A stretch of 12,203 nucleotides of DNA, taken from contig MFXJ01000020.1 of assembly GCA_001787465.1 (NCBI GenBank), forward strand, positions 1 through 12,203, written 5' to 3'. Below, in pieces: positions 6,054-12,203 of the stretch; position 1 is the stretch's first letter, and each line of letters opens with the position of its first letter. This DNA comes from Candidatus Peregrinibacteria bacterium RIFOXYB2_FULL_32_7 (GTDB lineage Bacteria > Patescibacteriota > Gracilibacteria > UBA1369 > GWF2-33-10). A program made the translations under genes and the position numbers. Under the pieces are notes generated by a model. It did not search any database. It was not told where the DNA came from and worked only from the letters and a program-made list of their open reading frames with translations.

Positions 6054-6158
6054 TCATTCACAATTCACAATTCACAATTCATAATTCATAATTCATAATT
6101 CATAATTCACAATTCACAATTCATAATTACCCATTCCCAATCCCTAATTACTAATTGC
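6054..6158. repeat. Heptanucleotide tandem array, 15 units
   Basis: The array is read in exact 7-nt steps. TCATTCA at 6054-6060 is followed by nine units of CAATTCA or TAATTCA (6061-6123), then five diverged units that keep the period: TAATTAC, CCATTCC, CAATCCC, TAATTAC and TAATTGC (to 6158). That makes 105 nt in all. It lies in the convergent junction between the unrecognised gene and pyrK. Such heptamer arrays are known as short tandemly repeated repetitive sequences in cyanobacteria and other bacteria. The unit carries TAA on the plus strand and TGA on the minus strand. Confidence 0.9.
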
Positions 6159-6281: not shown

Positions 6282-6321
6282 TTACCCATTCCCTCATTCA
6301 TAATTCATAATTCATAATTCA
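6282..6321. repeat. Second heptanucleotide array, reaching the pyrK stop
   Basis: TTACCCATTCCC (6282-6293) is an exact copy of 6127-6138 in the first array. It is followed by TCATTCA and three TAATTCA units (6294-6321). The last three bases, 6319-6321, are the TGA stop codon of pyrK on the minus strand. The array therefore touches the gene, and its outermost unit supplies the stop. Confidence 0.85.
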
Positions 6322-8131: not shown

Positions 8132-9442
8132 TTAAAAATTAATTATTTCGTTACAGTTTTTAAGTAATTCCTTTTCATAGAAATTTAATCCCAAATTTCC
8201 TGGTGCGCCAAGGCTTATTTTAGATTTAAGATTTTTTTGAAGATCAGGAATCTTTATTTTGTTTAAATTTTCTCCAACTTGTTTATATGCTTCTCTAAAA
8301 GGAATTCCTTTCGAAACCATTTCATTTGCTAAATCTGTTGCAAATATATCTTTTGAAAAAGACTTCTTTAATTTATTTATATTTGGTTTTATTTTTTTAA
8401 ACACTGTTTCAATCACATTGATACTATTTAAAGTTATATTAAAGGATTCAATTAAAGCATGTTTTGAAATCTTGAGGTCTTTGTTATAACCAGAAAATAA
8501 GTTGTGATAGGCGGTCTTGATCTGGAAGTCATAGGACATTATTACGCTTACATTTGCCCTTAAAACCTCTAATATGTCAAGATTCTGTTTCTGTGGCATT
8601 ATTGAAGAACCAGTTGTAAGCGATTTATCGATCTGAAAAAAATTGAATTCATAACTTGTAAACCAAATAATGTCATTTGCAATTTTGCCAAGCGTCATCA
8701 TTAACTGTGATAAAGAGCTTATTGTAAAACTTTCAAATTTACCTCTCGAGTTTTGACAATATAGGCTATTTACCTGAGTTTTTGCAAAATTTAAAAGTTT
8801 TGTTGTTTCTTCCCTATCGATATTTATACTTGTACCAAATCCTGAAGCGGATCCAAGAGGATTTTGATCGTTTAAACTAAAAGCACATTGTAAAAGTTTT
8901 AAATCATCAAGCAAAGCTTCTATGAAATTTCCTGCCCATTGACCAACGCTAGAAGGCATAGCTTGCTGTGTATGCGTATAACCTGGCATTGCTACGAATT
9001 CATATTTTTTTGAAAACTTTAAAATCTGTTTTGCTAGACTCAAACTCGCTTTTTCAAGCCCTTTAATTTTATCTTTTGTATAAAGCCTTATTGCTACCAA
9101 AATCTGATCATTTCTTGATCTTCCTGTATGGATTTTCTTCCCTATATCACCTAATTTTTCAATCAAAAAATTCTCTATCGCGCTATGACAATCTTCATAT
9201 TTACCAGCAAGTTGAAAATTCCCCATTTCATTTAACTTATAAATCTCTTTCAAGCTTCCAATAATATTACTTACTTCTTTATCATTTAAAATTTTTATTT
9301 TGTTTAACATTTTTACATGTGCGATTGAAGCTATTATGTCATACGGAAGAAGTATTTGATCCTCTGTCAGATTTTCACTGATAATATATTTATGAACTAT
9401 TTTTGCTGTTTTAGTTCCAGTTTTTTGCCAAAGTTTTTTCAT
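8132..9442 (-). CDS. argH: Argininosuccinate lyase, divergent
   Basis: ArgH splits argininosuccinate into arginine and fumarate, the last step of arginine synthesis. The 436 residues are slightly shorter than the common 450-470. Family marks are the start KLWQKTG, EDCHSAIE (83-90), the signature HTGRSRNDQ (105-113), PGYTHTQ with catalytic His157, NPLGSASGFG (194-203), GSSIMPQK with catalytic Ser279/280, ATDLANEMVSKGIPFREAYKQVG (as ATDLANEM, 368-375, and GIPFREAY, 379-386). Departures: the superfamily signature reads MPQKQNLD rather than MPQKKNPD, and THTQQAMPSSVGQW replaces THLQRAQPVT, so it belongs to a divergent branch. The key catalytic residues are present, so it should be active. It begins 19 nt after the argB-fusion stop, with no Shine-Dalgarno, and is clearly in the same operon. 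Confidence 0.92.
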   Translation of the reverse strand: MKKLWQKTGTKTAKIVHKYIISENLTEDQILLPYDIIASIAHVKMLNKIKILNDKEVSNIIGSLKEIYKLNEMGNFQLAGKYEDCHSAIENFLIEKLGDIGKKIHTGRSRNDQILVAIRLYTKDKIKGLEKASLSLAKQILKFSKKYEFVAMPGYTHTQQAMPSSVGQWAGNFIEALLDDLKLLQCAFSLNDQNPLGSASGFGTSINIDREETTKLLNFAKTQVNSLYCQNSRGKFESFTISSLSQLMMTLGKIANDIIWFTSYEFNFFQIDKSLTTGSSIMPQKQNLDILEVLRANVSVIMSYDFQIKTAYHNLFSGYNKDLKISKHALIESFNITLNSINVIETVFKKIKPNINKLKKSFSKDIFATDLANEMVSKGIPFREAYKQVGENLNKIKIPDLQKNLKSKISLGAPGNLGLNFYEKELLKNCNEIINF

Positions 9443-9461: not shown

Positions 9462-11078
9462 TTAAATAGGTACCGCGAAATATCCTGCAGTTTTATTTAT
9501 ATAAAATTCTTTTTTGGGAAAAATTATAAACAAATCTTTTGGAGCAATAATCTTTTTATGTTTATCAAAAGCTATTAGTTCCCCATTTTTAATAATATCA
9601 AAATTCGAAAAATTTTTTGCAAATTTAAAATCATTTGTTTTTGGCTTTATTGAATCAACTATTTCTAAATGAATCTTAGAAAATTTTTCATTTTTCATTT
9701 TTAATTTTTCATTAAAAAAAGCTGATTTAACTTTTTTTAAAAAAAGCTTTGTTTTTAAATACACATTTTGAAAATCTGAAAAATCTTTATGAAAACCTGT
9801 TTCAAAAGTTAACCCATATCTACCATTTGAATTAATGAAACTATCAGTTGAGCATATTAAATCTTTTTCTTTAAAATTCTGACCTAACGAAACTAAATAT
9901 TTTGTATGAAAAAATTTTGCAAGCTTAATATGCTTCTTAGAATTTTCTAAATATACAAAAGCTTTAGAGGGTTTTAAGGTTGAATGAATATCCAGACAAT
10001 AATCAGTTTTTTTTAAAATTTTAGCAATTTGAAGAGCTCTTAATTGCTCGTTATTTAAAATTACTTTTAAAGATAGTTTTTTAAAAATTTCTTTATCAAA
10101 TAACCTATTCAAATCTTCATTTATAAATCTTAAATTTTGCTTATAAGCCTTCGGATTGCCAAAAATAAGAAATATTTCTCCATAAATGCCTTCTTTTTTC
10201 AGATCTTGTCTCAAATTATCAATCAATTTTTTACCTATTTTCTCATTTCCATGAATAGATCCTATGATTGTAGTAATAGGTCCTTTATTATTACCAATAA
10301 AATGATCGATATAAACTGGATAATTTTTTGTTATGGTGGTCCCAGAACTTTGTTTGTTAGGATTTAGGATCTGAATTTCTTTTACTCCGCTTTTTAAGCT
10401 ATCGATAATATTTTGAACTTTAACAAGCATCCCATCTTGCACAAACTTTTCTTTTATCAAATTTTTGCATTCAGTAATATCTAAATTTTTGATCAAATTT
10501 TCATTTTTATAAATACCATCAACATTTGTAAAAAATATCAATTTTTCAACTTTTAAAGACTTAGCAATTTCCTTAGCAATGGTGTCAGCATTAATGTTTA
10601 GGATTTGTCCTTTTTTATCACAAGCAAGAGGTGAAACTATTGGAATGATATTCTTATTCAGTAAATGTAAAAGAATATCTGGATTAACTTTTTCTATGTC
10701 CCCCACAAATCCAAAATCAAATTCTTTTTTTGATCTTATTTTAACTTGTAACAAATTCCCATCAATTCCTGAGACTCTTATGCCATGAAGTGCAAATTTC
10801 TTCATAAAACTTAGAATTTCCAAATTCAGACTACCCCCATATAGCATCTTTATAATTTCCAAATCTTTATCACTTGTAACTCTTCTGCCATTAATTTTGA
10901 TTGGATTATGATTTAAAAGTTTTGATAATTCATCAGCCTGTTGCCCACCTCCATGCACAATAATTACTTTAATTTTTTGTTCATGAAGTTTTTTTGTATA
11001 TTTCAAAACATTTTCCAAAGATTTCTTTGATTTAATGATTTCACCACTAATTTTAATTATATAAATTAAATTTTTCAT
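9462..11078 (-). CDS. argB: ArgB acetylglutamate kinase fused to M14-type deacylase
   Basis: One open frame of 538 residues holds two enzymes. Residues 1-250 are an amino-acid kinase of ArgB type: IIKISG (Lys9), VHGGG (41-45), NGRRVT (Arg66), LNINADTIA (160-168), FFTNVDGIY (182-190), DGMLVK (Lys220) and SGTTI. Residues about 265-455 are a succinylglutamate desuccinylase/aspartoacylase (M14) domain: zinc ligands His276 and Glu279 in SIHGNE, NPKA (308-311), Arg317, DLNR (322-325), zinc ligand His365 in LDIHST and catalytic Glu426 in TFETG. A beta-rich C-terminal domain (about 468-538) completes the deacylase. No Met and no obvious start codon lies near the junction, so the deacylase exists only as a fusion. 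The ATG overlaps the argD stop (ATGA). Context suggests it phosphorylates acylglutamate and deacylates acylornithine or acylcitrulline, replacing ArgE/ArgJ. Substrate choice is inference; LysZ-like use in a LysW pathway is less likely beside argH. Confidence 0.9.
   Translation of the reverse strand: MKNLIYIIKISGEIIKSKKSLENVLKYTKKLHEQKIKVIIVHGGGQQADELSKLLNHNPIKINGRRVTSDKDLEIIKMLYGGSLNLEILSFMKKFALHGIRVSGIDGNLLQVKIRSKKEFDFGFVGDIEKVNPDILLHLLNKNIIPIVSPLACDKKGQILNINADTIAKEIAKSLKVEKLIFFTNVDGIYKNENLIKNLDITECKNLIKEKFVQDGMLVKVQNIIDSLKSGVKEIQILNPNKQSSGTTITKNYPVYIDHFIGNNKGPITTIIGSIHGNEKIGKKLIDNLRQDLKKEGIYGEIFLIFGNPKAYKQNLRFINEDLNRLFDKEIFKKLSLKVILNNEQLRALQIAKILKKTDYCLDIHSTLKPSKAFVYLENSKKHIKLAKFFHTKYLVSLGQNFKEKDLICSTDSFINSNGRYGLTFETGFHKDFSDFQNVYLKTKLFLKKVKSAFFNEKLKMKNEKFSKIHLEIVDSIKPKTNDFKFAKNFSNFDIIKNGELIAFDKHKKIIAPKDLFIIFPKKEFYINKTAGYFAVPI
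9684..9711 (-). repeat. Heptamer repeat inside the fusion gene
   Basis: On the plus strand TTTTTCA, TTTTTCA, TTTTTAA and TTTTTCA follow each other in 7-nt steps. Read in frame they encode the Lys/Asn/Glu-rich stretch NEKLKMKNEKF (residues 456-466). The stretch falls between the catalytic and C-terminal domains of the deacylase, a place where inserted residues would be tolerated. The period is the same as in the intergenic arrays, though the sequence differs. Confidence 0.75.
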
Positions 11079-12202
11079 ATAAGTACTGATTTTAAAATTT
11101 TTATAAATTGGTCAATCTCGCCAAACGTTACTGTTAATGGTGGCATAAGCCTAAAAACGTCTTTTTTATACGAAGGACCCAAAATCAGCCCTTTTTCCAG
11201 ACAAAGTTTTACAAAATTTAGTTTAACTTCTTTAAACTTAATGCCAATCAAGAACCCTTTGCCTAAAACTTGATCTATTTGATTTATCTCCTTAAGCTTT
11301 TTAATCAAATAAAAACTTTTTTGTTTAACTTTTTTCAAAAAATTTTTTCTAAGAATATAATTAATATTTGCATATCCAGCACTACACACAAGTGGTCCGC
11401 CACCAAAAGTTGTGGCATGCTCTCCAGTTTTAATTGTTCTTGAAATCTTTTCTTTAAGCAAAACTGCTGATATTGGAAGCCCTCCTGCAATACCTTTTGC
11501 AGATGTGATTATGTCAGGATAAATTCCAATCTGTTCGCAGTACCAAAAAGTACCAGTTCTTCCAAGTCCTGTTTGGACTTCATCAAAAATAAGTAAAATA
11601 TTATTCTCATCACAAAATTCTCTTAACTTTTTGTAAAACTCAAAATCAACTTCATTAATGCCACCTATGCTCTGAATTGCTTCACAAATTATTGCGGCAA
11701 TATTCGCATTACAAAGTTCTTTTACGCTATCCAAATTTCCAAATTCTGCAAATGAAGTGTATTGATCAAGATTTGGTTCAAATTGGTGATAGCTATCAAT
11801 ACCAGTAATCCCTAAAGATGTAATAGATCTGCCATGAAAAGATTTTTTAAAAGAAATAATATGATTTTTGTTTGTAAATTTTCTTGCCATTTTGATAGCT
11901 GTTTCATTTGCTTCTGAACCAGAATTAGCAAAGAAAACCTGATATTTTTCTGGTAGCAAAGTCTCACAAAGCTTCTTACCAAGCTTAAAAGAGGGTTCTG
12001 TGAAAAAAATATTTGAATAAAAAATCAATTTATCACTTTGTTTTTTTATAGCTTTTACTATCGTAGGATTACAATGTCCTGTTATACAAACTGCATGGCC
12101 ACCATAGAAATCTAGGTACTTTTTGCCACTTTTATCCCAAATATAAGTTCCCTTGGCTTTAACAATTTCAACTTCGAATTGCTCATAAGTTTGTAGCAAA
12201 TA
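11075..12202 (-). CDS. argD: Acetylornithine-type aminotransferase, 5'-partial
   Basis: ArgD is a class III PLP aminotransferase that makes N-acylornithine from the acylglutamate semialdehyde with glutamate as donor. The frame is open to the right edge. The TTG at 12199 is probably not the start, because the codon before it (Tyr) continues the family N-terminus YLLQTY, and a few residues should lie outside. Numbering from that TTG, marks are GSEANE (94-99), FHGRSITSLG (121-130), FDEVQTGLGRTG (205-216, Asp206), the PLP lysine 235 in TSAKGIAGG and TTFGGGP (263-269). The loop usually reading QGEGG is QSIGG (176-180): the gating Glu is Ile178. Length otherwise fits the family. Its TGA overlaps the next ATG by 4 nt, so translation is probably coupled. 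Another acylornithine or omega-amino-acid aminotransferase remains possible. Confidence 0.88.
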   Translation of the reverse strand, partial: YLLQTYEQFEVEIVKAKGTYIWDKSGKKYLDFYGGHAVCITGHCNPTIVKAIKKQSDKLIFYSNIFFTEPSFKLGKKLCETLLPEKYQVFFANSGSEANETAIKMARKFTNKNHIISFKKSFHGRSITSLGITGIDSYHQFEPNLDQYTSFAEFGNLDSVKELCNANIAAIICEAIQSIGGINEVDFEFYKKLREFCDENNILLIFDEVQTGLGRTGTFWYCEQIGIYPDIITSAKGIAGGLPISAVLLKEKISRTIKTGEHATTFGGGPLVCSAGYANINYILRKNFLKKVKQKSFYLIKKLKEINQIDQVLGKGFLIGIKFKEVKLNFVKLCLEKGLILGPSYKKDVFRLMPPLTVTFGEIDQFIKILKSVLI

Positions 12203-12203
12203 T

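Follow-up and report, generated by a model that had tools for sequence, protein, structure and literature searches.

The argB gene is fused to a zinc deacylase gene between argD and argH

The DNA analyzed here (the window, 12,203 bases) is a whole contig of the 1.11-Mb, 116-contig, 74% complete assembly (G000) of an uncultured, small-genome bacterium. An earlier note had placed in it a gene joining argB to a deacylase gene, and its coordinates proved correct (Table 1): the plus-strand reading contains 42 stops, and the minus strand is a single open frame of 538 amino acids. Matches of the neighboring genes to argD and argH bear out the position between these 2 genes, and the spacing of the 3 genes (ATGA overlap and 19-base gap) is as in an operon. 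Elsewhere in the window, positions 3-2969 encode an open-ended 988-amino-acid protein with cysteine-containing repeats (CGDG...CDDG), for which Pfam gave no match at E 0.01; it is perhaps a surface protein. Heptamer tandem repeats (ATTCACA, ATTCATA, ATTTTTC) occur at 6056-6149, 6296-6321, and 9683-9748; the last of these and a 25-base repeat lie inside the fusion gene, around NEKLKMKNEKF, between the catalytic and C-terminal domains.

Table 1. Positions of the fusion gene, its parts, and its neighbors in the window
Feature	Position	Strand	Remarks
argD, acylornithine aminotransferase	11075..12203	minus	runs off contig end; ATGA overlap with argB
argB::AstE-like deacylase fusion gene	9462..11078	minus	538 aa + stop
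ArgB (N-acylglutamate kinase) part	10323..11078	minus	residues 1-252 (boundary ~252)
11-residue gap relative to unfused relatives	10356..10361	minus	between residues 240 and 241; helix H region
AstE/AspA-type zinc deacylase part	9465..10322	minus	residues 253-538
Zinc motif HGNE (His276, Glu279)	10242..10253	minus	H, G, E invariant in alignment A4 (88 sequences)
D-I-H-S-T-L-K-P-S, residues 363-371	9966..9992	minus	zinc ligand His365, basic Lys369
Catalytic Glu426	9801..9803	minus	invariant in A4 (88 sequences)
argH, argininosuccinate lyase	8132..9442	minus	19 bases downstream of fusion

The protein belongs to the ArgB family by its score with the argB model TIGR00761 (206.8 bits, cut-off 151.3, residues 6-237), and AA_kinase (PF00696) matched it with 149 bits. 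AstE_AspA_cat (PF24827) matched residues 266-432 with 63.4 bits (cut-off 25), and the C-terminal AstE_AspA_hybrid (PF04952) matched residues 484-534 below its cut-off (17.6 versus 25). Peptidase_M20 (PF01546) was not listed for the fusion protein at E 0.1, which places it outside the ArgE/DapE-type M20 family. No stop separates the 2 domains, both align without frameshift, and the kinase and zinc motifs are intact. Residues 217-285 contain no in-frame ATG, GTG, or TTG codon, and there are many stops in the other 2 frames; the deacylase part therefore lacks a usual start codon, but it may alternatively be translated from Met217, which lies inside ArgB, or from a rare codon. The protein search returned the identical fusion protein on 4 contigs, possibly from dependent assemblies. 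The fusion is thus real as sequence, the evidence coming from assembled contigs. Both ArgB and AstE_AspA_cat were over cut-off in the domain search that the note had proposed, and with the unbroken frame and a second such fusion (P0002, see below) this bears out an in-frame fusion of ArgB to an AstE/aspartoacylase-type deacylase.

The deacylase part is placed by profile and fold in the AstE/AspA superfamily

The predicted structure of the deacylase part (mean pLDDT 96.9) aligned end to end with AstE structures, and the alignment (model residues 1-287) takes in the C-terminal hybrid domain. Both profile and fold are closest to AstE, the nearest solved relative by profile. The residues described as intact in the note (His276, Glu279, His365, the DLNR motif with Asn324 and Arg325, and Glu426) were all found in place, Arg317 is also present, and Lys369 occupies the place of an AstE arginine. 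The catalytic-domain match over cut-off, the zinc ligands, the catalytic glutamate, and the fold make the deacylase part a member of the AstE/AspA superfamily, as the note had proposed. It scored 43.1 bits with the AstE equivalog TIGR03242 (cut-off 305.65) and 68.8 bits with the aspartoacylase equivalog NF002601 (cut-off 180), and judged by these profiles it is a superfamily member outside both equivalogs.

The clade to which it belongs, the edge of which was drawn where match scores drop from 226 to 190 bits, contains 94 proteins (P0005 and P0121-P0213) among the 120 listed of 133 matches. Where these proteins have a name, it is that of the superfamily or succinylglutamate desuccinylase. The motif D-x-H-x(3,4)-[KR]-x-S was present in 87 of the 94, in the AstE of 3 PDB entries, and in 3 of the 26 other listed matches. 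The genome collection contained 8 deacylase loci, assigned by title to Peregrinibacteria (2), Peribacteria (2), Gracilibacteria (1), Patescibacteria group (1), bacterium (1), and alphaproteobacterium (1).

Relatives carry argB and the deacylase gene as separate neighbors

The fusion was searched against 118 genomes (G000 included) and 353 genomes of the class. Ten genomes had an ArgB match of at least 200 bits (hereafter, the ArgB genomes): G000 and 9 relatives; G331 (127 bits, 32% identity) was not counted. In 8 of the 9 relatives the deacylase gene lies immediately downstream of argB on the same strand, and in the ninth (G087), where the contig ends approximately 70 bases after argB, the last 22 codons are those of a deacylase start up to HGN. 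In all 9, argB ends in a stop codon and the deacylase gene begins with a separate start codon; the genes overlap in G087 and G113. Open frames of 572-604 amino acids were given in the search table for G007, G057, G076, and G114, yet the DNA shows a stop, and among the 10 ArgB genomes only G000 carries the fusion. In 19 more of the 118 genomes, AstE-like proteins (23-34% identity) occur without this ArgB, which indicates that membership of the superfamily does not in itself imply a link to arginine.

A protein search with the fusion, in which the 7,998 likeliest candidates were scored, gave 270 matches, of which 120 were listed. Among the matches listed, P0002 (574 amino acids, source name Candidatus Peregrinibacteria) is an ArgB-AstE fusion with a full ArgB tail. 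P0001 and P0002 occupy different places in both trees, and the P0002 fusion is apparently independent of that in G000. Two other proteins contain ArgBs related to that of G000: in P0003 ArgD is fused to ArgB, and in P0004 ArgB is joined to an M20 (ArgE/DapE-type) deacylase, which sits in the slot held elsewhere by the AstE-type domain.

The gene pair lies in an arginine operon with an acylornithine-type carbamoyltransferase

Six genomes (G007, G012, G025, G032, G076, and G114) share the gene order argG, acylornithine carbamoyltransferase, P-loop protein, argC, argD, argB, deacylase, and argH. The argG, carbamoyltransferase, P-loop, argB, and deacylase genes are search matches in all 6; argC was tested with a model in G025 only, and argC elsewhere, argD, and argH were assigned by likeness of their starts. 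G057 has the eight-gene set on 2 contigs, G087 and G055 have parts of the operon up to contig ends, and in G113 the P-loop gene (its end only), argC, argB, and the deacylase are present, with no argD between. The relatives that carry this operon are metagenome-assembled genomes of Peregrinibacteria, Peribacteria, and Gracilibacteria. An acylornithine-type carbamoyltransferase, argG, and the P-loop gene were not found in a search of the 74% complete G000 assembly, where the contig ends in argD. The conserved P-loop protein of approximately 342 amino acids between the carbamoyltransferase and argC (L036:12402-13427; homologues in L033, L034, L035, L037, L038, and L040) resembles DUF1611/DgcN, among other P-loop enzymes, in its fold, occurs also in genomes without this ArgB, and is a candidate N-acylglutamate synthase.

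The acylornithine-type carbamoyltransferase was present in 8 of the 10 ArgB genomes, in the same operon in 6, and was not found in G113, though the argB-deacylase pair is present there. An excerpt of PMC4581275 gives a rule for recognizing N-succinylornithine carbamoyltransferases (SOTCases) by the residues at the Glu92, Asn185, and Lys302 positions. SOTCase residues occupied all 3 positions in 9 of the 9 genomes in which the carbamoyltransferase was found (Q, S or A; P; and V, E or I, respectively); Gln at the Glu92 position (4 of 9) is in the review's list and outside the S, P, A or V of the GapMind excerpt. These residues back the guess in the note that the pathway is succinylated. With the N-acetylornithine model NF003384 (cut-off 288) the carbamoyltransferase scored above cut-off, 363 in G025 and 401 in G007, and the G025 enzyme scored 247 bits with the Xanthomonas N-acetylornithine carbamoyltransferase (AOTCase) versus 162 with the B. 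fragilis enzyme.

The note had also proposed the deacylase as the candidate for a missing step of arginine synthesis and suggested a survey for argE and argJ. We found argJ in 2 of the 118 genomes and in none of the 10 ArgB genomes, and M20 proteins in 38 of the 118 and, among the 10, only in G007, G012, and G113; neither was found in the 74% complete G000 assembly, in keeping with the proposal. The G007 M20 protein fits [LysW]-lysine hydrolase best, under its cut-off, and is over that of TIGR01902 (N-acetyl-ornithine/N-acetyl-lysine deacetylase), so it could in principle act on acylornithine. The G012 match is a partial DapE-like one in a 710-amino-acid protein, under every cut-off, and the G113 protein fits an amidohydrolase best, over the TIGR01891 cut-off.

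The ArgB half lacks 2 segments present in relatives

The G000 ArgB lacks an 11-residue segment before the last strand that the other 24 aligned sequences have, and most of an N-terminal extension that the 9 related genomes have. By the alignment, and by the NAGK (ArgB) topology that we assume, the missing pieces lie on helix H and the N-helix. An excerpt of PMC3329491 describes the arginine-inhibition site of yeast NAGK, in which the N-helix and helix H flank the bound arginine, and states that arginine-insensitive NAGKs exist; the missing segments therefore bear on regulation and not on being ArgB. The G000 protein does not fit the arginine-inhibited subtype, and the fused ArgB is predicted to be a kinase without arginine inhibition; alternatively, without the helix H segment the kinase might be impaired or inactive. 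Both segments are present in the 9 relatives, P0003, and P0004, and also in P0002, so an ArgB-deacylase fusion need not lack them.

A predicted role of the fusion in a succinyl-type arginine pathway

We consider it rather likely that the fusion serves a succinyl-type arginine pathway as a two-domain enzyme, the C-terminal domain of which would desuccinylate N-succinylcitrulline. The ArgB domain would phosphorylate N-succinylglutamate (step 2), ArgC and ArgD would lead on to N-succinylornithine, and the acylornithine carbamoyltransferase, presumably the same enzyme in G000, would convert this to N-succinylcitrulline. The AstE-clade domain would then release citrulline and succinate using one zinc (His276, Glu279, His365), and ArgG and ArgH would complete the pathway. 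If the roles that we take to hold in the aspartoacylase family apply, Glu426 would be the general base and Arg317 would polarize the carbonyl; Lys369 probably holds the succinyl carboxylate. Because SOTCase residues are present in all 9 carbamoyltransferases, the most likely substrate of the deacylase is N-succinylcitrulline, so that deacylation would follow carbamoylation instead of releasing ornithine. In this respect we depart from the earlier note, which had assigned to it the ornithine-releasing step 5: the acylornithine carbamoyltransferase of the relatives would put deacylation on citrulline, and the fusion would join step 2 to acylcitrulline deacylation. The fusion would have arisen by loss of the ArgB tail, the ArgB stop, and the deacylase start, joining the neighboring genes.

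An acetyl route, in which the domain would be an N-acetylcitrulline deacetylase acting with AOTCase as in Xanthomonas, fits the NF003384 scores, the best PDB match of the carbamoyltransferase (AOTCase), and the presence of deacetylases (aspartoacylase, EutE/DoeB) in the AstE/AspA fold. We regard it as unlikely, since the residues that mark AOTCases are replaced by SOTCase-type ones in 9 of 9 and AstE is the nearest solved relative of the domain. A quite improbable reading is that the domain does the work of ArgE, freeing ornithine from N-acylornithine for an ordinary ornithine carbamoyltransferase (OTC). EutE/DoeB, titled N-acetyl-L-2,4-diaminobutyric acid deacetylase, has the same fold and a substrate close to acetylornithine, and an alphaproteobacterium has the deacylase beside argH and carbamoyltransferases whose scores place them outside the acylornithine type; but that genome has argJ and one M20 protein, hence no need for a new ArgE, and the ArgB genomes have the acylornithine-type enzyme as described.

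Least of all do we expect that the genes are really separate and joined by an assembly or base-calling artefact, or that the gene is decaying and its kinase half dead. The missing 11 residues would suit such an explanation, as would the origin of the sequence (a metagenome-assembled genome, with a GC content of 22-28% over the gene) and the separate genes of the relatives. Splitting in relatives, which the note had named as a sign of assembly error, is indeed what the 9 show, but the open frame, the intact motifs, and the 4 identical contigs speak against an artefact, and the constant argB-deacylase pairing and the second fusion indicate that the fusion is genuine and no assembly error.

As in the Bacteroides succinyl pathway, N-succinylcitrulline desuccinylation would follow carbamoylation of an acylated ornithine by an enzyme with SOTCase-type residues; the synthase candidate differs, and an AstE-type enzyme, fused to ArgB in G000, would replace the Bacteroides enzyme BT3549, whose succinyl-diaminopimelate desuccinylase family we take to be M20. 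BT3549, the proposed N-succinylcitrulline desuccinylase, is described in an excerpt of PMC7311316 as distantly related to succinyl-diaminopimelate desuccinylase. The acetylcitrulline pathway of Xanthomonas resembles the one proposed here in route and overall carbamoyltransferase sequence and differs in the 3 specificity residues and in the deacylase family. The Xanthomonas acetylcitrulline deacetylase is of the M20 ArgE type. AstE itself, the succinylglutamate desuccinylase of arginine catabolism, shares the fold, the zinc site, and the basic residue after the second zinc ligand, whereas the fusion domain is far under the AstE cut-off and is encoded in an operon for biosynthesis. Among known ArgB fusions, the NAGS-kinase of X. 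campestris (PMC1865377) and the ArgB-ArgC of fungi likewise join ArgB to a pathway enzyme, whereas the partner here is a deacylase. A prior description of an ArgB-deacylase fusion or of such a pathway was not found in the open-licence literature, judged by title and start of abstract, and the excerpts of PMC9166423 concern the Tat system.

More tentatively, and with considerable doubt, we propose a succinyl arginine pathway that combines a P-loop DUF1611/DgcN-like N-succinylglutamate synthase with an AstE-clade desuccinylase fused to an ArgB without arginine-inhibition site. Both enzyme types (the P-loop synthase and the AstE-clade N-succinylcitrulline desuccinylase) would then be unrecorded, and the pathway unlike those known to us. 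The committed and deprotection steps would be made at one ratio, without feedback. The domain is a concrete candidate for a deacylase that these genomes would otherwise lack for arginine synthesis, at a step for which other organisms use an unrelated family. The carbamoyltransferase residues are evidence, at the sequence level, that Patescibacteria make arginine by the succinyl route, which the GapMind excerpt describes for Bacteroidetes. The slot after argB offers a natural experiment, with an AstE-type gene in 9 relatives, a fused domain in 2 proteins, and a fused M20 domain in one.

Two minor observations concern other loci. On the alphaproteobacterial contig (L080:9001-11166), in the genome with argJ, the deacylase adjoins an argH that is Patescibacteria-like by its start, possibly through transfer or a binning error. 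In 5 relatives without a close ArgB (G009:C201, G034:C101, G041:C2, G051:C11, and G073:C114), an ordinary-type OTC match lies next to argG, and it is possible that these make citrulline and arginine from outside ornithine.
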